Source: Altibacter sp. (lineage in GTDB: Bacteria > Bacteroidota > Bacteroidia > Flavobacteriales > Flavobacteriaceae). Taken from it: a stretch of 58,420 nucleotides of DNA. Below, one piece after another: positions 4,942 through 52,944 of this stretch. A program made the position numbers and the translations under genes. The stretch is from positions 1 through 58,420 of the forward strand of contig NZTP01000053.1 in NCBI GenBank assembly GCA_002696485.1. The letters run 5' to 3'. The notes beneath the pieces are model-generated. The model was not told the origin of the DNA. It made no database searches and was given only the letters and a program-made list of their open reading frames with translations. Each line of letters starts with the position of its first letter. Within the stretch, counting starts at the first letter, position 1.

Positions 4942-6108
4942 TTAAGTGGCTTTCTTATATGCTTTACCGTCGATCACCATCTTTGCGATGATCTCTTTCA
5001 ATATCTCTGAAGTTCCTCCTCCAATGGGTCCCAACCTACTGTCTCGAAAAAGTCTGGCCAGCGGATACTCTTCCATATATCCATATCCCCCTAAGAATTG
5101 AAGGCATTCGTACATGACCTCATCAGAAACCTTGGTGGAAATCAATTTTGACATGGTAGCCTCTTTGACCACGTATTCTCCATCATTTAAACGTTTGGTT
5201 GTAACATAATTAAAGGTCTTACACACTTCCACTTCGGTAGTGAGTTGTGCGACCCGATGACGTAAGGCCTGAAATTTAGAAATACTCTTTCCAAAGGCCA
5301 TACGATCCTTCATGTATTGAATTGTGTATTCCAATGCAAACTCGCTTCTGGCATGGGCGTTGATTCCCATGATCAATCGTTCCAGCGCAAAATGCTGCAT
5401 GATATATGGAAAACCTTGGTTCTCTTCTCCCATCAAATTTTCAGCAGGAATCTTCACATTGTCAAATGCAATCTCACCTGTATCACTGGCGCGCCATCCT
5501 AATTTATCCAATTTGGTGGCAGAAATTCCATCCACATCCCTATCCACAACAAAAATACTAATCCCCTTATTACCAAGTTCGGGTTTGGTCTTAGCCGCTA
5601 CGATCAAATAGTCGCTGTACACTCCGTTGGTAATGAATGTTTTAGATCCGTTCAAGAGGTAATAATCACCCTTCTTTACCGCAGTACTTCGCATACCGGA
5701 AACATCGCTTCCGCCAAAAGGCTCTGTGATACAAAGACAGCCTATCTTCTCGCCGGTAATGCTGGGCGCTAGATACTTTTCTTTCTGTTCATGACTTCCT
5801 TCCTTGTTCAAATGCGTCATGGCCAAGTAGGCATGAGCCCACATGGCAGCAGCAAATCCACCGCTATTGATCTTTTGCAGTTCTTCTAAAAAAATTACCG
5901 TGTAGAACAGGTCGAGATTCATGCCTCCATACGCTTCGGGGTAGTTGATGCCAAAATAACCCATGGCTCCAAACTTTTCCCAAATGAAGCGTTCTATATG
6001 CCCTGTTTTTTCCCACTTTTCAATATGGGGTACTACCTCTTTTTGTAAAAAATCCTGAAAACTTTTTCTGAAAAAATCGTGCTCTTCTGTGAAGTACATC
6101 TTACTCAT
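4942..6108 (-). CDS. Acyl-CoA dehydrogenase
   Basis: FAD-dependent alpha,beta-dehydrogenation of an acyl-CoA, passing electrons to ETF. Domain order is standard: N-terminal helices (FTEEHDFFRKSFQDFL), middle beta domain with CITEPFGGSDVSGM and GSKTFITNG, then the C-terminal helical domain with RDSRLGPIGGGTSEILKEII. The position that holds the catalytic Glu in medium-chain enzymes (YEGT) is Gly here; the base is probably the Glu of ALERLIMG, as in isovaleryl-CoA and long-chain dehydrogenases. The reading frame extends to an ATG at 6159 overlapping the upstream ComEA-like gene; the start at 6108 (MSKMYFTEEH) fits the family better. Confidence 0.9.
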   Translation of the reverse strand: MSKMYFTEEHDFFRKSFQDFLQKEVVPHIEKWEKTGHIERFIWEKFGAMGYFGINYPEAYGGMNLDLFYTVIFLEELQKINSGGFAAAMWAHAYLAMTHLNKEGSHEQKEKYLAPSITGEKIGCLCITEPFGGSDVSGMRSTAVKKGDYYLLNGSKTFITNGVYSDYLIVAAKTKPELGNKGISIFVVDRDVDGISATKLDKLGWRASDTGEIAFDNVKIPAENLMGEENQGFPYIMQHFALERLIMGINAHARSEFALEYTIQYMKDRMAFGKSISKFQALRHRVAQLTTEVEVCKTFNYVTTKRLNDGEYVVKEATMSKLISTKVSDEVMYECLQFLGGYGYMEEYPLARLFRDSRLGPIGGGTSEILKEIIAKMVIDGKAYKKAT

Positions 6109-10027: not shown

Positions 10028-11302
10028 TTAGGTTCTTTTTAACATTGCGTTGCCTATTTCGCAGTTCAAACAACGACGCGTATCGCAATAGAATTCCTTA
10101 AGCTGAAGCAGCGCCTGACTCTCAAATGCAGAAGTAGCAGTCACGCCCAGTTCTTGAAATTTTTTTATCGTGGAGTTTGCTTCAGGAGGGAGTGCCAAGG
10201 CCCATTGTAGGGTTTCTTCGGAAGCGTGATTCCCTAAAGATCGAAAGTAAGCAAACCGCATAGGAAGCACCGTATTCAGGACTAAAAGGTCAATAAATTT
10301 TCCGGTTAGCTGTGTATTCCGCTCTTTGGAACGCGAGGTAAATGTATAATGTGTTTTCCAGAATTCGCTTGTTTCAACAGTAAACAGTCGGTATAGATCG
10401 GGCATCTCTCGAACCGTGATTACTTTCGAAAACAAGTGGCTGTGGGTTACGTACAAAGCGGCTACCTGTGCCAAACGAATGGTTGGAAAATTAGAAGGTC
10501 GTAATCTGAAGAATTTAGGAGGAATGATCCCATCACCCGACAGATGATATTTATGTTTAATGTACCGGTGTGTACCTTGTAGCTCTTTAAAATAAGGGGC
10601 CTCAGCAACGATATCGAGCAAACCGGCCTGACCCAGCAACAAAGCTTCCAGCGATACTAAGTGATCGCTGCATTTTTGAACTAAAGAGAACGAGACGGAC
10701 TGTGCAATACTCAAAAAAGCGGGACCATTTACTTTCAATCCAAAGTTCTTGCACAACATTTCAAATAACAGAGCTTCCCAATGGTTGTTCAATTGTGAGG
10801 CCCGCGTTGCTAAAAAGCGCGCCTTTTTCTCCAAGCGCTCAACATAAAGACGTTCCAACCAATGCGCATAGGTAAAGGTGTCGATGGGAGGCATCGACTG
10901 TTCGCAAGGAATCCATTTTGTCTCGGCCGAAAAAAGTTTTTCGTAAGTCCTCAGTATCTGCTTTGGAATGCGGTTCTTTAATTCCAGTGTGGGAATGCAG
11001 GTAGTGTCTTTTCGCAATACTTCGGAAGTGTGTTCCCATACAACATGGAGGATCACCGAATCGTAAGCTGTGTCTGTATGGTGTTGATGCAAATACCATT
11101 GTGATGACGCTATATGAAGCTCCACATTCCCTGCCCACAACTGACCCTCGATCACGATCTGCGCATTGAAAAAATCGGGACCCGAATCGTGGTTATGGCT
11201 CCCCGGTGCTATAATTTGTAACGACTGACCTTGGGCGGTCTTCAAATTGTGGTTGTCAAATTTCTGAAACTGCCACACATAATGCAGGAATTCTTCTTTC
11301 AT
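10028..11302 (-). CDS. DUF2851 family protein
   Basis: Cytosolic protein of unknown biochemical role, typical of Bacteroidota. The N-terminal half has the signature GSHNHDSGPDFFNAQIVI and WAGNVELHIASSQW, then HTDTAYDSVILHVVW. The C-terminus has a small Cys cluster (CDTRRCLNCEIG) that could bind metal. Length 424 is normal for the family. No signal peptide and no obvious partners; PspC lies downstream on the same strand. Confidence 0.82.
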   Translation of the reverse strand: MKEEFLHYVWQFQKFDNHNLKTAQGQSLQIIAPGSHNHDSGPDFFNAQIVIEGQLWAGNVELHIASSQWYLHQHHTDTAYDSVILHVVWEHTSEVLRKDTTCIPTLELKNRIPKQILRTYEKLFSAETKWIPCEQSMPPIDTFTYAHWLERLYVERLEKKARFLATRASQLNNHWEALLFEMLCKNFGLKVNGPAFLSIAQSVSFSLVQKCSDHLVSLEALLLGQAGLLDIVAEAPYFKELQGTHRYIKHKYHLSGDGIIPPKFFRLRPSNFPTIRLAQVAALYVTHSHLFSKVITVREMPDLYRLFTVETSEFWKTHYTFTSRSKERNTQLTGKFIDLLVLNTVLPMRFAYFRSLGNHASEETLQWALALPPEANSTIKKFQELGVTATSAFESQALLQLKEFYCDTRRCLNCEIGNAMLKRT

Positions 11303-11341
11303 GAATCCGGAATTAAGGTGGGGAGTTGAAGTAAGAGTATA

Positions 11342-43785: not shown

Positions 43786-43895
43786 GGGCGTTCCCTCCAT
43801 CGCTAAGGCGAAGAAGGGTCGGGCTTTCGGCTGTATCCCCCAAGCCGGTTGGGGGGATGCCGCCTCAACAAGCCCGCCTTTGGCGGGTCCCTAAC
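43786..43895 (-). repeat. Dispersed structured repeat, copy 2
   Basis: Read on the minus strand it starts GTTAGGGA, has GC-rich inverted repeats (CCCGCC/GGCGGG and CCCCCCAA/TTGGGGG), then GATACAGCCGAAAGCCCG (43820-43837) and ends GGGAACGCCC. Its GTTAGGGA end faces the kdsA promoter box 25 bp away. Non-coding; the open frame that runs through it into kdsA is not used. Confidence 0.7.
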
Positions 43896-43920
43896 GCAAC
43901 TCACCACGAAGTTATTTTAC

Positions 43921-43928
43921 TATCTTTG
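43921..43928 (+). promoter_or_regulatory. kdsA -7 promoter box
   Basis: TATCTTTG 19 bp upstream of the kdsA ATG matches TAnnTTTG. No clear TTG is found at the expected distance. A start close to 43932 would give a leader of about 16 nt. Confidence 0.55.
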
Positions 43929-43947
43929 CATCCTTAATACACAGCAA

Positions 43948-44766
43948 ATGAATCTTGACCACATCCCAAAAATAAAACACACCCAATCCAATAATTTTTT
44001 CTTACTCGCAGGTCCCTGCGCCATTGAAGGAGAGGATATGGCCATGCGTATCGCCGAAACCATCGTTAACATTACCTCCAAATTGGAAATTCCGTATGTG
44101 TTCAAAGGGAGCTTTAAGAAAGCGAACCGCAGCAGAATCGATAGTTTTACGGGGATTGGTGATGAGAAAGCGCTTAAAATCTTGGAAAAAGTCTCTAAAG
44201 AATTTGATATCCCTACCGTGACCGATATCCATGAAGTGTCCGATGCTGCAATGGCCGCCCAGTATGTAGATGTATTGCAGATCCCTGCTTTTTTGGTGCG
44301 TCAAACCGATCTTGTTGTAGCAGCTGCCGAAACAGGAAAGGTGGTAAATTTAAAGAAAGGACAGTTCATGAGTCCTGAAAGTATGAAGCATGCGGTGACT
44401 AAAGTGACAGACTGCAACAATTCACAGGTAATGATCACCGATCGTGGGACCATGTTCGGATATCAAGATATGATCGTGGATTTTCGAGGAATTCCCACTA
44501 TGAAAGCCTATGCACCTGTGGTATTGGATGTCACCCACAGCTTGCAACAGCCCAACCAGAGCGTAGGAGTAACAGGAGGACGCCCTGAAATGATCAGCAC
44601 CATTGCCAGAGCAGGTATTGCTACCGGAGTCGACGGGCTGTTCATTGAAACACACTTCGATCCCGCCAATGCAAAAAGTGACGGCGCCAATATGTTGGAC
44701 CTCAACAAACTGCAAAAGCTACTTACCGATCTTGTTGCGATCCGTAAAACGATCAATCATTTATAG
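43948..44766 (+). CDS. kdsA: 3-deoxy-8-phosphooctulonate synthase
   Basis: Condenses phosphoenolpyruvate with arabinose-5-phosphate to make KDO-8-phosphate for lipid A core. 272 residues from MNLDHIPKIKH; motifs FFLLAGPCAIEGEDMAM, YVFKGSFKKANRSRIDSFTG, LQIPAFLVRQTDLV, KKGQFMSPE and DRGTMFGYQDMIVDFR are diagnostic. An in-frame upstream start at 43849 lies in the dispersed repeat and upstream of the promoter box, so it is rejected. Tail-to-tail overlap of 10 bp with the DUF1801 gene. Confidence 0.96.
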   Translation: MNLDHIPKIKHTQSNNFFLLAGPCAIEGEDMAMRIAETIVNITSKLEIPYVFKGSFKKANRSRIDSFTGIGDEKALKILEKVSKEFDIPTVTDIHEVSDAAMAAQYVDVLQIPAFLVRQTDLVVAAAETGKVVNLKKGQFMSPESMKHAVTKVTDCNNSQVMITDRGTMFGYQDMIVDFRGIPTMKAYAPVVLDVTHSLQQPNQSVGVTGGRPEMISTIARAGIATGVDGLFIETHFDPANAKSDGANMLDLNKLQKLLTDLVAIRKTINHL

Positions 44767-45131
44767 ATAGGAAGCGCCCGCAAGGCGTAGGCTTCTTGAA
44801 GCAGATCGACCAAAACTCCATCATCTATATCTTCCAAAGCGAAATAACGTAGCGACTTCATGTGTTTCCGATTTTCTGAAACGAGCACATCGAGGTGTTT
44901 TGTGAGATGAGCACCCCGGGTAAAACAAAGATCCACATACTTTTTCGACTGATTCAGATAGCAAAACATATTCTTGCCGGACAAGTAGTAGAACGGTAGG
45001 TGCCACTTGAATTTTAAATCTGCTTCAGGGATGGTGGTTTCTATTACCAATTGTAGATGAAGCATGATAGCACGATACGGTTCTTCTTTGGAAAGTATAT
45101 AGGCTTCGGCTGGATTCATTCTCAAATTCAA
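44757..45131 (-). CDS. DUF1801 domain protein
   Basis: 124 residues of the YdhG-like DUF1801 fold (related to frataxin-like/MmcQ-type small domains): YRAIMLHLQLVIETTIPEADLKFKWHLPFYYLSGKNMFCYL and KYVDLCFTRGAHL are characteristic. Function unknown; probably cytosolic. The start could be the next Met four codons in. It is followed upstream by a hairpin (GAAAAGCC/GGCTTTTC, 45161-45193) and then the small-RNA-like array. Confidence 0.8.
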   Translation of the reverse strand: MNLRMNPAEAYILSKEEPYRAIMLHLQLVIETTIPEADLKFKWHLPFYYLSGKNMFCYLNQSKKYVDLCFTRGAHLTKHLDVLVSENRKHMKSLRYFALEDIDDGVLVDLLQEAYALRALPIYK

Positions 45132-45228: not shown

Positions 45229-45300
45229 GTAAAAAAGGGCTACTCAAGATAGAGTAGCCCTTTTTACAATCGCTTTTTTTAACTCCCCAATTAATTAAGC
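45229..45300 (-). ncRNA. Small RNA-like unit 1
   Basis: Minus-strand unit. Predicted start near 45300; conserved element TTAATTGGGGAGTTAA (45279-45294), which folds as UUAAU/GUUAA with loop UGGGGA; then a terminator GGGCTACTC/GAGTAGCCC with T-run (45231-45265). The flanks CGATTGTAAAAA and TTTTTTACGAT extend the stem. No open frame of note. Same layout as units 2 and 3. Confidence 0.6.
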
Positions 45301-45304
45301 TATA

Positions 45305-45335
45305 CAAAGATGGGAATTAGATGAAGGGCACACAA
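45305..45335 (-). promoter_or_regulatory. Promoter of unit 1
   Basis: Minus-strand TTG (45333-45335), 20-bp spacer, CATCTTTG (45305-45312). A GG-T5-CC dyad (acAGGGTTTTTCC on the plus strand, 45356-45369) lies 21 bp further upstream. Confidence 0.65.
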
Positions 45336-45387
45336 GAGGGTTAAGACCCTTTTTAAACAGGGTTTTTCCCCTTTATTCAGTATGTAT

Positions 45388-45508
45388 CGTAAAAAAAAAG
45401 TTGCTCAGACGAGCAACTTTTTACAATCGTATTTTATTAACTCCCCAATTAATGCAATAACGATTCTTTACGCAAATACTATGGTTAGATAGATTGGTCT
45501 CTAATGAA
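45388..45508 (-). ncRNA. Small RNA-like unit 2
   Basis: Minus-strand unit, longest of the three (about 120 nt). Conserved element TTAATTGGGGAGTTAA at 45437-45452, then CGATTGTAAAAA and a terminator GTTGCTC/GAGCAAC with a run of nine T (45391-45425). About 50 nt of unrelated leader precede the conserved element. No open frame shared with the other units. Confidence 0.6.
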
Positions 45509-45511
45509 AAT

Positions 45512-45543
45512 CAAAGATGCAACGAAAATGAGATATGAGGCAA
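45512..45543 (-). promoter_or_regulatory. Promoter of unit 2
   Basis: Minus-strand TTG (45541-45543), 21-bp spacer, CATCTTTG (45512-45519). Two GG-N-TTTTT-CC dyads lie next to it and upstream: AACAGGGTTTTTCC (45542-45555, overlapping the TTG) and AAGGATTTTTCC (45567-45578). Confidence 0.6.
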
Positions 45544-45595
45544 CAGGGTTTTTCCTGTTTTCTACTAAGGATTTTTCCTTTTTACGAGCAAGTGA

Positions 45596-45669
45596 AATAA
45601 AAAAAGGCTGCCTTAACAGCACAGCCCTCTTTCATAGTTGCTATTATTAACTCCTCAATTAATTAAGCT
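45596..45669 (-). ncRNA. Small RNA-like unit 3
   Basis: Minus-strand unit. Conserved element TTAATTGAGGAGTTAA (45647-45662; one base differs from units 1 and 2 and lies in the loop), then a terminator GGCTG/CAGCC with T-run (45598-45630). A 17-codon frame exists here only, so it is probably chance. Confidence 0.58.
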
Positions 45670-45672
45670 TTA

Positions 45673-45703
45673 CAAAGATGCAAATTGACCACGGACAACA
45701 CAA
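45673..45703 (-). promoter_or_regulatory. Promoter of unit 3
   Basis: Minus-strand TTG (45701-45703), 20-bp spacer, CATCTTTG (45673-45680), the same box as units 1 and 2. AACAGGTTTTCC (45725-45736) lies 22 bp further upstream. Confidence 0.65.
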
Positions 45704-45809
45704 GAGGAAAACCCCCCATTTTTCAACAGGTTTTCCACTAATAATTTCTAAAAACATCCTCATCTAAAAATTAACATAACTTTATTTTGCCAAATCAAAC
45801 AATATACTT

Positions 45810-45828
45810 TACTTTGTTTTTCAAAGTA
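45810..45828. promoter_or_regulatory. Operator-like dyad, copy 1
   Basis: TACTTTG-N5-CAAAGTA followed by CTTTATT and the ATG of the membrane-protein gene (45836). It overlaps the probable promoter box TTACTTTG, which has TTG 19 bp upstream (45787-45789). An almost identical site precedes the Coq4-like gene. Likely bound by the winged-helix protein encoded at 46446. Confidence 0.65.
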
Positions 45829-45835
45829 CTTTATT

Positions 45836-46444
45836 ATGAGTGAGCAGGATTATCTAAAAGACATCTCCGAGATCAAGGATCTCATGAACCGTTCGTCCCG
45901 ATTTATTTCACTTAGCGGTCTATCGGGTATCTTCGCCGGCCTGTATGCCATTACGGGTGCCATTATCGCCTATGTGTTTATCTTTCCTGAACCCGGAGAA
46001 CACTTGTATCTTCATAGTATCGATTTTAAACTACTACTAGTACTACTGGCATCTGTAGCTATTTTGAGTATCGTTACGGCTTACCTGCTTACTTCGCGAA
46101 AGGCCAAAAGAGAAAAGGTTAAGGTTTGGGATGCCACTACACGCAGACTCTTGCTCAACTTTCTAATACCATTGGTCACCGGGGGTATATACATATTGAT
46201 AAAATTGAACAGTCAGCACTATGGACTTACTGCCGCGCTCATGCTCATCTTCTACGGACTCGCCTTGGTGAATGCGTCAAAATACACCATTGGAAATGTA
46301 AAGTATTTAGGATATGCCCAAATCGTGCTTGGGCTAATTTGTGCGGCACTTCCGGGCTATGGCTTTTGGTTCTGGCTATTGGGATTTGGTGTATTTCACA
46401 TTATCTACGGAAGCATAATGTATCTGCAAGAAAAAAAGAGATAA
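45836..46444 (+). CDS. Six-helix integral membrane protein of the creD cluster
   Basis: 202 residues, about six membrane helices (for example GIFAGLYAITGAIIAYVFIF, LLLVLLASVAILSIVTAYLL, YGFWFWLLGFGVFHIIYGSI). The N-terminus EQDYLKDISEIKDLMNRSSRFISLSG is typical of proteins encoded just before HTH_34 regulators and creD in Flavobacteriia. Function unknown; a sensor or modulator for the regulator is an inference. Stop and the next GTG start are 1 bp apart. Confidence 0.75.
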   Translation: MSEQDYLKDISEIKDLMNRSSRFISLSGLSGIFAGLYAITGAIIAYVFIFPEPGEHLYLHSIDFKLLLVLLASVAILSIVTAYLLTSRKAKREKVKVWDATTRRLLLNFLIPLVTGGIYILIKLNSQHYGLTAALMLIFYGLALVNASKYTIGNVKYLGYAQIVLGLICAALPGYGFWFWLLGFGVFHIIYGSIMYLQEKKR

Positions 46445-46445
46445 G

Positions 46446-46736
46446 GTGGGAATTATCGATAACATCAATAAACTGTTTGATCATAGAATCCGTCTCGGGA
46501 TCATGTCCATCCTTATGGTAAATGAAGATGCCGATTTTAATAGATTGAAGGAACTATTGGATCTCACCGACGGGAATCTGGCAAGTCATATTAAGGCGTT
46601 GGAACAAGCCGCATATATCTTGGTCGAGAAACAATTCGTAGGTAGAAAACCAAATACTCGTTATCGTGCAACTCCCTTGGGAAAAGCTGAATTTAAAAAG
46701 CATATTGAAGCGCTTGAAAAATTGATCAAGAAATAA
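46446..46736 (+). CDS. Winged-helix transcriptional regulator (HTH_34 type)
   Basis: 96 residues starting at GTG: HRIRLGIMSILMVNEDADFNRLKELLDLTDGNLASHIKALE is the winged-helix domain, with wing KQFVGRKPNTRYRATPLGKAEF. Such MarR/ArsR-like proteins bind dyad operators as dimers. The two TACTTTG-N5-CAAAGTA sites at the starts of this cluster's two transcription units make autoregulation and control of the Coq4-like and creD genes likely. The inducer is unknown. Confidence 0.85.
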   Translation: MGIIDNINKLFDHRIRLGIMSILMVNEDADFNRLKELLDLTDGNLASHIKALEQAAYILVEKQFVGRKPNTRYRATPLGKAEFKKHIEALEKLIKK

Positions 46737-47308: not shown

Positions 47309-48655
47309 ATGGAACAAAAAAGAAATAAATTTGGGAATTGGCTGCGAAACTCCATCACAGCACGCATGCTTATTGTGGGTTTTTTACTGCTTATTCTCCT
47401 TATTCCTCTGGAGTTTGTAAAGTCGCTCATCACCGAACGATCCTTTAGACAATCCGAGGTAGTTAGGGAGATCAATAGCAAATGGGGTAATGAGGTACTG
47501 CTCTCCGGACCGGTACTAAAAATCCCTTACAACACCTATAAGGAAGAGAAAATCTTTATCGAGAAAACAAAGACATACGAAACCAAGACCGAGGTCATTG
47601 TAAAAAATGCTTATCTACTTCCCGATCTCTTACATATACGCTCTACGGTAGATTCTAAACCACTTAAGAGAGGCATCTATGAATCGGTGGTGTACACAGC
47701 CAATATTTCAGCCAACGGTACTTTCCCGGCCATTGACCTGTCGGCTCAGGATATCGCTAAGGAGGATATTCTCTGGGAGAAGATCACAGTAATCCTTCGC
47801 AGTTCAAACCTTAACGGTATTAGAAGCGGTTTGGAGGTACAACTGGGAGCAGAAACTGTAGCAATGAGTCCGCGATACGACCAACACTACCTCAACACTA
47901 TACAAAGTGATCCTTTAAAAACACTTACAGTAGAAAGTGCAGAACCGGTGTCTTTTTCTTTCGACCTGAAGATCAATGGAAGTGAAAGTCTCAAGTTCAT
48001 TCCCGTGGGAAAAAAAACCACTGTAAGGATGGATTCCGATTGGCATTCTCCTAGTTTTGACGGTAAGTACTTGCCGGATGATGGCACTAAAGAAATTTCG
48101 AAATCAGGGTTTTATGCCGATTGGCAGGTGTTTCAGATCAATCGCCAATTCGAACAGGAATTCTATAACGGTATGCCGGACCTTTCAGAATTTGGGTTTG
48201 GCACCAACTTTATCATTCCTGTTGATGAATATCAAAAAAGTGAACGAACCGCAAAGTATGGGTTTATGGTTATTGGACTCACCCTGCTTGTCTTTTTGTT
48301 GATCCAAATTGTAAGTAAGATCTACATTCATCCGTTTCAATATGTGATGATCGGGCTGGCCTTGGTGATGTTCTACACCTTGCTTATTTCCATTTCGGAA
48401 CACAGTAGTTTTTTAAAGGCATACGCCATTGCAGGTGCTTCGGTATTGGGACTCATTACCCTGTATTCCCGGGCGATTCTAAGCGGTTTTAAATTTCCAT
48501 TGCTAATTTGCGTCTCTCTGGCATCGCTGTATGGGTTTATTTATGTGATCATACAGTTGGAAAGCTATGCGTTGTTGGTAGGAAGTATTGGCTTGTTTGT
48601 GATCTTAGCCATAATCATGTTCGCCTCCCGAAAAATTGATTGGGGAAACGACTAA
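47309..48655 (+). CDS. creD: Cell envelope integrity protein CreD
   Basis: Inner-membrane protein of 448 residues: one N-terminal helix (RMLIVGFLLLILLIPLEFVK), a large periplasmic domain (about 45-310) containing DLSAQDIAKEDILWEKI and SFDLKINGSESLKFIPVG, and a C-terminal block of about five helices. CreD responds to the CreBC system and beta-lactam stress in proteobacteria. In Bacteroidota it is found next to HTH_34 regulators as here. Probably cotranscribed with the Coq4-like gene; a terminator follows at 48667. Confidence 0.88.
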   Translation: MEQKRNKFGNWLRNSITARMLIVGFLLLILLIPLEFVKSLITERSFRQSEVVREINSKWGNEVLLSGPVLKIPYNTYKEEKIFIEKTKTYETKTEVIVKNAYLLPDLLHIRSTVDSKPLKRGIYESVVYTANISANGTFPAIDLSAQDIAKEDILWEKITVILRSSNLNGIRSGLEVQLGAETVAMSPRYDQHYLNTIQSDPLKTLTVESAEPVSFSFDLKINGSESLKFIPVGKKTTVRMDSDWHSPSFDGKYLPDDGTKEISKSGFYADWQVFQINRQFEQEFYNGMPDLSEFGFGTNFIIPVDEYQKSERTAKYGFMVIGLTLLVFLLIQIVSKIYIHPFQYVMIGLALVMFYTLLISISEHSSFLKAYAIAGASVLGLITLYSRAILSGFKFPLLICVSLASLYGFIYVIIQLESYALLVGSIGLFVILAIIMFASRKIDWGND

Positions 48656-52534: not shown

Positions 52535-52931
52535 GGGGCCGACTGGTTTTGACAGCGGGTCTAATGGTACTATAAGCATGTCGAGCGCTGGGAAATAGCT
52601 CGTAAATCTCATTTTTCACACTTTTTAAACGGCGAGAATAACTACGCCCTAGCTGCATAATCCGAATTATAGTAGGATAATGCCTCGGTCCGCAAGGCGG
52701 ACAAGCAGGAAGTCACTCGAAGGCCTTGGTTTACGGCGTTCGATCTAGTGGCTTCGTAAAAGTAGACCTAGCTCGCGCAGGGCTTTGATGCGCTTGCGAA
52801 ACTAAAATGAAGCTAAGGGGTGCGTTGGTAGTTTTCGACCGGCAAGCCCACGAAAATCTAAATGAAAACTAAGCATGTAGAAAGTAGTAGTATTGCACGT
52901 TTGGACGAGGGTTCGACTCCCTCCGGCTCCA
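52535..52931 (+). ncRNA. ssrA: Transfer-messenger RNA
   Basis: Rescues stalled ribosomes as tRNA-Ala mimic plus mRNA. The 5' end GGGGCCGACTGGTTTTGACA and 3' end CGGCTCC close the acceptor stem (GGGGCCG/CGGCTCC); the T-arm is GGTTCGACTCC. The tag frame at 52631-52660 reads GENNYALAA and stop TAA, the Bacteroidota type. Discriminator A at 52931; CCA is not encoded. A promoter box GATCTTTG lies at 52519-52526. The 3' end is the attachment site of the element at 52910-58328, and the gene remains intact. Confidence 0.97.
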
Positions 52932-52932
52932 C
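52910..52932. repeat. attL, 3' end of ssrA
   Basis: 23-bp site starting GGTTCGACTCC and ending CGGCTCCAC; identical to attR except for two bases (positions 6 and 8). The last 15 bp are perfect. It forms part of the T-arm and acceptor stem of the tmRNA, so integration leaves ssrA functional. Confidence 0.9.
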
Positions 52933-52944
52933 AATTAATTCTTT

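Follow-up and report, generated by a model that had tools for sequence, protein, structure and literature searches.

Three short, similar units lie head to tail on the minus strand of an Altibacter genome, and their arrangement raises the question of what is repeated there and on what it might act. We analyzed a 58,420-nucleotide stretch of contig NZTP01000053.1, hereafter the window, from a 3.02-Mb draft genome; among the matches, the nearest relative with a name is Altibacter lentus (G101), of the same genus. On one side of the units is a gene for a DUF1801 protein (44757 to 45131, minus strand), their downstream neighbor, followed by kdsA (43849 to 44766, plus strand). On the other side are divergent open reading frames: one of unknown family and an HTH_34 regulator (45836 to 46736, plus strand), a Coq4-like frame, and a frame at 47309 to 48655 that we take to be creD-like. 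These neighbors bound a conserved interval. A preliminary description of the locus, made from the sequence alone, had read the units as a family of multicopy small RNAs (sRNAs) that possibly bind a protein, an interpretation that as a whole is partly supported by the analysis reported here.

The three units were found where they had been described, and they are paralogs, each with its own promoter and terminator. Unit 1 (45230 to 45300) is a predicted sRNA of ~71 nt with a hairpin at its 5′ end and a terminator at its 3′ end. Its 16-nt core, TTAATTGGGGAGTTAA, occupies 45279 to 45294, and the arms of its terminator hairpin (45232 to 45265) are 14 nt long and 100% complementary. Unit 2 (45389 to 45507) is a predicted ~119-nt sRNA in which a leader of ~55 nt precedes the same core (45437 to 45452), closed by an outer stem AATCGT/ACGATT, and a terminator. 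Unit 3 (45599 to 45668; predicted, ~70 nt) carries a core (45647 to 45662) with the loop variant GAGG. All three lie on the minus strand, as do their cores and promoters, and each folds into a 5′ hairpin and a strong terminator (z scores of −4.7, −5.3, and −3.6 for units 1, 2, and 3). They score 89, 65.9, and 73.8 bits, respectively, against a covariance model of which they are themselves part. In the rest of the 3.02-Mb assembly, the sole further place within one mismatch of the 16-mer is TTAATTGGGCAGTTAA on contig C19, which sits within a 369-codon open frame. By a longest-ORF test, the units do not code for protein: across 98 distinct units, the longest frame in the first 80 nt averages 12 codons and reaches 26 at most.

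The promoter form that had been proposed, TTG-N20/21-CATCTTTG, is present in front of every unit. Read on the minus strand, the −7 boxes start at 45312, 45519, and 45680 (spanning 45305 to 45312, 45512 to 45519, and 45673 to 45680), with TTG at 45333 to 45335, 45541 to 45543, and 45701 to 45703 and spacers of 20, 21, and 20 nt. In Flavobacterium, the box is placed at −12 to −5 (PMC9723704). From box spacing only, units 1 and 3 are predicted to start at the G of GCTTAA, so that their ~70-nt RNAs would open directly with the hairpin, and unit 2 is predicted to start ~55 nt ahead of its core. The hairpin is closed by GCUU or GCU with AAGC or AGC in units 1 and 3 and by AAUCGU/ACGAUU in unit 2. 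The core had also been described as a hairpin with GGA always in the loop. The hairpin holds up in the predicted fold; the loop does not, because the A after the tetraloop pairs with the U preceding the loop, and the minimum-energy tetraloop is GGGG or GAGG.

A single GG-T4/5-CC dyad had been noted upstream of each TTG. It is there, but a second GG...CC dyad, ~22 bp closer, abuts the TTG in all three units, giving tandem pairs at 45338 to 45371 (45338 to 45349 and 45360 to 45371) for unit 1, 45547 to 45578 (45547 to 45555 and 45569 to 45578) for unit 2, and 45706 to 45736 (45706 to 45713 and 45729 to 45736) for unit 3. Among 31 promoters, TTG stands at a spacer of 20 to 22 in 28, and two GG-N4-7-CC dyads 19 to 24 bp apart are present in 21, versus 2 or fewer in shuffles; in the remaining ten, the dyads are mostly degenerate as judged by eye, and loci L049 and L054 have none. 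The promoters are probably of the sigma-A type, with the paired dyads, ~22 bp apart, probably serving as an activator site. Tandem dyads also occur 5′ of the type IX secretion system (T9SS) plug gene in both Altibacter genomes (loci L147 and L140) and are absent from the other 12 of the 14 plug leaders read (of 17 loci); because only two of these 14 carry them, we do not claim a T9SS regulon. The HTH_34 regulator was considered as the dyad-binding factor and is disfavored, by eye only, its own operon being preceded by a different element. This element is the inverted repeat TACTTTG-N5-CAAAGTA (45810 to 45828), which lies 5′ of the frame at 45836 and the HTH_34 and creD-like genes, is found in L131 too, and may be the operator of the regulator.

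How far does the array extend among relatives? A covariance model built from 29 units (R1) matched 26 of 299 Flavobacteriaceae genomes at an E value of ≤1e-4 and 69 of 299 at ≤0.01, its own members included, in agreement with the proposal of a family of multicopy sRNAs in which promoters and hairpin are conserved and terminators have diverged. The weaker tail is mixed, with matches that are real by position (L137 and L139) and others that resemble plain terminators (L136 and L138). At least one flanking gene, from the kdsA/DUF1801 side or the creD operon side, was detected in 25 of the 26 genomes; the exception is G273, for which the fetched locus is only 3 kb. Across the phylum, in a run under stricter filters that could miss weak relatives, R1 matched 2 of 395 genomes at ≤0.001, namely, that of the window and a second Flavobacteriaceae genome.

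Searches with simpler patterns gave a similar distribution. Of 199 family genomes, 16 contain the exact 16-mer and 54 contain it with up to one mismatch, many of the latter probably by chance, as a reversed control suggests. The preliminary description had staked its reading on conservation of the element in related genomes, and the element is conserved there. Genes for KdsA, the DUF1801 protein, a frame of the 45836 type, the HTH_34 regulator, or the creD-like protein adjoin the exact 16-mer in 15 of 16 genomes, the window included; G114 has its exact copy elsewhere (L054) and a TTAACTGGGGAGTTAA copy at the usual place (L137). The L054 copy (4980 to 5110, minus strand) is a second, nonsyntenic one near a tRNA-like stretch; by eye it lacks dyads, and its core sits between both arms of an apparent terminator. 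A promoter-plus-core scan of a collection of named genomes returned 38 stretches, 37 of them flavobacterial (Altibacter, Aequorivita, Ulvibacter, Planktosalinus, Cochleicola, Luteirhabdus, Thermobacterium, Marixanthomonas, and metagenome-assembled genomes, some filed as Flavobacterium or Zunongwangia). The other, from a Fusobacteriaceae contig without the flanking genes, is taken as chance. Flanking genes were detected at 36 of the 38, the second stretch in which they were not being L074 of Planktosalinus. Over 52 loci, some of them shortened by contig or fetch ends, one distinct unit was counted in 22, two in 16, three in 12, and four in 2. G289 has five R1 matches, two of which lie elsewhere and overlap on opposite strands.

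In a scan with Rfam 15, the family is absent, and only tRNAs and a transfer-messenger RNA (tmRNA) pass the gathering score; Flavo-1 (RF01705), which had been put forward for comparison, gave the units no match at the gathering score or at an E value of ≤10, and no other Rfam family takes them in. Most of the subthreshold sRNA matches in that scan follow the terminator. The window's tmRNA gene (tag GENNYALAA) lies at 52535 to 52934 and four tRNA genes at 1084 to 1706. As for mobile copies, two patterns had no exact match in viral contigs, and plasmids gave no blastn match. A limited literature search yielded no description of these sRNAs and none of comM being controlled by an RNA in Bacteroidota. 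The family, its place, and its conservation are established by computation, and the sRNAs look like a previously undescribed family found in one clade of Flavobacteriaceae.

Conservation within the unit points to the part that matters. From 112 covariance model matches, we omitted 11 (eight in L112 and L114, which are the same DNA as L079 and L080, and three weak ones at L086:946, window:45200 on the plus strand, and L080:4825 on the minus strand) and merged three units with identical flanks to obtain the 98 distinct units. Core positions U6, G7, G9, A11, and U14 are invariant in all 98; G8 changes to A in six, G10 and G12 to A in two, and U13 changes once, with the last two core positions varying in 17 and 16 units. 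Changes in the stem mostly keep pairing (U-G to C-G in nine units and U-G to U-A in two, with single cases of U-A to C-G or A-U). In 13 units that end in TTTT, mostly from Aequorivita, the outer two pairs do not form, and a longer outer stem is predicted instead. The terminator helix has changes on both sides at 10 of 10 pairs, and 97.4% of whole-structure cells are paired versus 86.9% in shuffles, both figures coming from an alignment that was fitted to the model and so leans toward it; that alignment (A1) omits L054 and the L057 unit at 5613, the terminators of which are unclear. When flanks were swapped among 19 clusters, the outer closing stem averaged −6.4 versus −5.0 kcal/mol, a difference reached by 10 of 5,000 permutations. 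A near-invariant core, a covarying terminator, and an outer stem together indicate selection on the unit at the RNA level, with its function most likely residing in the core sequence.

A search of six genomes for sites antisense to the whole core led to a candidate target. Two orthologous Altibacter sites begin 25 nt before the start of the gene for YifB/ComM (TIGR00368, 609 bits); whole 16-mer antisense sites as a class were not enriched over a reversed control in these genomes. In the hairpin, the loop and 3′ stem strand read GGGAGUU, the complement of which, AACUCCC, lies 20 to 32 nt before the AUG of comM (yifB). Among 24 comM leaders fetched, ACTCCC is the commonest 6-mer and is present in 20, always starting 20 to 32 nt 5′ of the start codon; in shuffled leaders ACTCCC occurs at most 2 times and the commonest 6-mer at most 13. 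The leaders are hard to align save for two blocks, a −7-like box in many of them and AACTCCC shortly after. Because the leaders are related by descent, we read this as a computationally established footprint and not as 20 independent events. The core thus appears to hold a conserved seed complementary to a conserved site in the comM mRNA leader, with four exceptions: G198, which has only AATTCCCC; G042 and G273, both Planktosalinus, which have the sRNA and a leader without the site; and G007, which has neither an R1 match nor a site and is the one genome that serves as an sRNA-lacking control. R1-bearing genomes make up 22 of the 24, and 19 of these 22 have ACTCCC; G200 has the site and lies outside the set to which R1 was applied.

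Predicted duplexes range from −11.8 to −20.9 kcal/mol with the site and from −6.1 to −8.1 kcal/mol without it. For the whole sRNA and its own comM leader, ddG is −15.3, and the GAGG variant of unit 3 pairs more weakly with its own leader (−14.0 versus −20.9). Single leaders compared with their own shuffles show a moderate edge in some genomes, with up to 16 of 200 shuffles as good. The core is too uniform to show covariation with the comM site.

It is possible, if rather improbable, that ACTCCC is a promoter or initially transcribed DNA element, or serves the comM mRNA in its own right, so that its complementarity to the sRNA is coincidental and the sRNA has its targets elsewhere. The site comes ~10 bases past the −7-like box in many leaders, and a role at the level of DNA is possible for that reason; two sRNA-bearing genomes of one genus do without the site; and over three whole genomes the counts of AACTCCCC are roughly double those of its reversed form (61/36, 75/35, and 72/36), an excess that may be plain composition. 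However, ACTCCC is absent from the leaders of two other genes, the T9SS plug gene (0 of 13, from the 13 of 17 loci read) and the array's divergent neighbor (0 of 26, these being the loci with a start pattern among 53 tried). Moreover, the site exactly complements the least variable stretch of an sRNA found in 22 of the 24 genomes, and comM was reached by the antisense search with no prior choice of gene.

A second alternative, which we consider unlikely, keeps closest to the preliminary description: the sRNAs would titrate or deliver a protein that binds the G-rich hairpin, in the manner of CsrA or RbpB, and the comM match would be incidental or the same protein would bind both. Near invariance of a core that includes the stem, the multicopy arrangement, and the resemblance to GGA motifs noted at the outset are all in keeping with such a protein. 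Yet the CsrA family (PF02599) was found in 0 of 21 genomes, with 3 of 14 control genomes positive, and RRM_1 in 0 of 1, the window's own genome (95.8% complete), so that neither a CsrA- nor an RbpB-type partner was found and the suggested CsrA-type ligand is not borne out. On the same search, a CsrA-sequestering RNA of the CsrB/RsmY type was rejected. Each RNA also offers one site and not many, and its complementarity to a conserved mRNA site is exact. We favor base pairing over protein binding because conservation enters the 3′ strand of the stem (GGGAGUU) and because this strand matches the comM leader.

Two further readings are very improbable. The G-rich loop could be a Shine-Dalgarno (SD)-like decoy that, in ribosomes without bS21, pairs with the 16S rRNA anti-SD, in analogy to the SD-bearing rpsU mRNA of Flavobacterium johnsoniae: GGGGAG or GAGGAG can pair with CUCCU, and inhibition of SD-anti-SD pairing by bS21, with an extended SD in rpsU, is reported for Flavobacteriales (PMC9976891); against this, predicted pairing with the 16S tail is weak, at −7.3 to −8.1 kcal/mol versus up to −20.9 with comM, the rare GAGG loop pairs better with this tail than the common GGGG, and the conserved UU of GGGAGUU would be without a role. 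Equally doubtful is a family like FopS and GibS that controls glycan uptake (susC) mRNAs, which would share the multiple copies, sigma-A type promoters, a 5′ region plus terminator, and, for FopS, GUUAAUAAAAG, but the matches to FopS (RF04319; 17.4 and 21.5 bits) fall below the gathering score of 56, 0 of 21 relatives exceed it, the FopS consensus has a different seed without GGGGAG, and no RRM protein was found in the window's genome.

Our preferred reading, held with moderate confidence, is that these are tandem, trans-acting, base-pairing sRNAs that silence comM, so that ComM is made when the sRNAs are off. Transcription and the direction of the effect, repression, are what we infer here. 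Each copy would be transcribed from its own sigma-A type promoter, preceded by the two dyads, to give a short RNA with a weak 5′ hairpin that displays the G-rich loop and, at the other end, a terminator conserved in shape only. The loop would contact 5′-AACUCCC-3′ near the start of the comM mRNA, after which the 3′ strand of the stem would zip onto it. Pairing would then block translation or destabilize the mRNA, and since the site is 20 to 32 nt before the AUG, a translation block seems likeliest; activation of comM or protection of its mRNA is possible instead. ComM, the branch migration helicase of natural transformation, would be made only while the sRNAs are off, with a presumed consequence for transformation. 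Several copies may serve dose or separate timing, as was proposed for the multicopy FopS (PMC11697453). More tentatively, the array could be a dedicated RNA switch for transformation in Bacteroidota, in which dose-graded tandem copies driven through the dyads shut off comM translation, presumably independently of RocR; we put this at somewhat less than an even prospect.

Evidence from other bacteria bears on what such silencing could mean. A paper on the branch migration helicases of transformation calls ComM the canonical helicase of this kind in Gram-negative bacteria (PMC11612176). Natural competence in Flavobacteriaceae is known from Riemerella, and in Riemerella anatipestifer YifB insertion mutants are reported to transform at 1.3e-7 and 2.3e-7 versus 5.5e-5; the same source states that F. 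johnsoniae has homologs and gave no transformation under the conditions tried there (PMC8459023). If our reading is true, a conserved sRNA directed against comM would help to account for when flavobacterial cells can integrate DNA, and it would offer a handle on the genetic tractability of marine flavobacteria. It would also point to more than one origin of comM silencing by RNA and would add multicopy base-pairing sRNAs with a seed in the hairpin loop to Bacteroidota, a phylum described as being without the classical chaperones (PMC11697453).

The nearest functional parallel, by description and not by sequence, is RocR of Legionella pneumophila, a terminator-bearing small RNA for which posttranscriptional repression of DNA uptake genes, comM included, is described (PMC7811196; PMC9674577); with its chaperone RocC it represses comEC, comEA, comFC, and comM (PMC7811196). 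The chromosomally encoded RocR has a partner of the ProQ/FinO type and acts on several com targets, whereas in the Altibacter family only comM is supported, the copies number one to four in tandem, and the seed lies in a hairpin loop; repression was shown for RocR and is proposed for the Altibacter family. Multicopy sRNAs of the Qrr type exemplify the principle of a shared seed, and both they and LhrC differ from the Altibacter family in phylum, targets, and chaperones. LhrC1-7, named in PMC11697453, are alike in being paralogous sRNA copies. FopS (RF04319) and GibS (RF04182) of Bacteroides are likewise Bacteroidota sRNAs with terminators that pair near start codons, FopS being multicopy (PMC11697453); they differ in their seed, in scores for the Altibacter units below the gathering score (21.5 of 56 for FopS and 27.1 of 115 for GibS), and in their partner RbpB, an RRM protein of a family not found in the window's genome. 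Rfp18 of Flavobacterium psychrophilum, also compared by description, is a conserved flavobacterial sRNA with predicted mRNA pairing, but it is reported to pair through its third stem-loop and with metalloprotease mRNAs (PMC9723704).

Are there targets besides comM? We surveyed the surroundings of AACTCCCC sites in G101 (57 of 61 sites), G264 (69 of 72), and G078 (17 of 75 fetched). The uncounted sites are, in G101, two sRNA units, the site at 727043 (fetched earlier as L185), and one too near the end of its locus and, in G264, two further sRNA units and a repeat whose flanks are identical. Start-proximal sites in sense versus antisense orientation numbered 12 versus 7 in G101, 5 versus 8 in G264, and 3 versus 2 in G078, which is not clearly an enrichment. 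When the start-proximal sense frames of G101 (13) and G264 (5), counted by a slightly laxer rule than the 12 and 5 above, were compared by blastp (E value of ≤1e-3), comM was the only homologous pair. In the window, a secondary candidate AACTCCCC site (11320 to 11327, minus strand) begins 25 nt ahead of the start codon (ATG, 11302) of a DUF2851 gene (10028 to 11302, minus strand), and it is at the same place in Altibacter lentus (L331). Other start-proximal sites, each in one genome, precede radC, an M23-like gene, and genes for other secreted proteins; along with the DUF2851 gene, these are weak candidates. The gene radC, which is linked to transformation, has its site in Altibacter lentus (L337) and is the sole other transformation-linked gene with one; comEC, dprA, and comF were not recognized among the sense AACTCCCC rows, which are only partly annotated.

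Interruptions of comM were seen in several of the genomes. The gene is a known insertion target in Acinetobacter (PMC11472951). In three sRNA-bearing genomes, it is split by ~33, 20, and 12 kb (G039:C36:364416-397271, G063:C24:72940-92530, and G090:C1:141849-153524; loci L221 to L227). In G188 it is in two pieces on different contigs, and in the window's own genome it lies at contig ends. Between the comM pieces in G039 itself lies a gene with TTAACTCCCC 30 nt before its start (L188:675-705), a layout like that of comM; the first 232 amino acids of this gene's product match no Pfam family.
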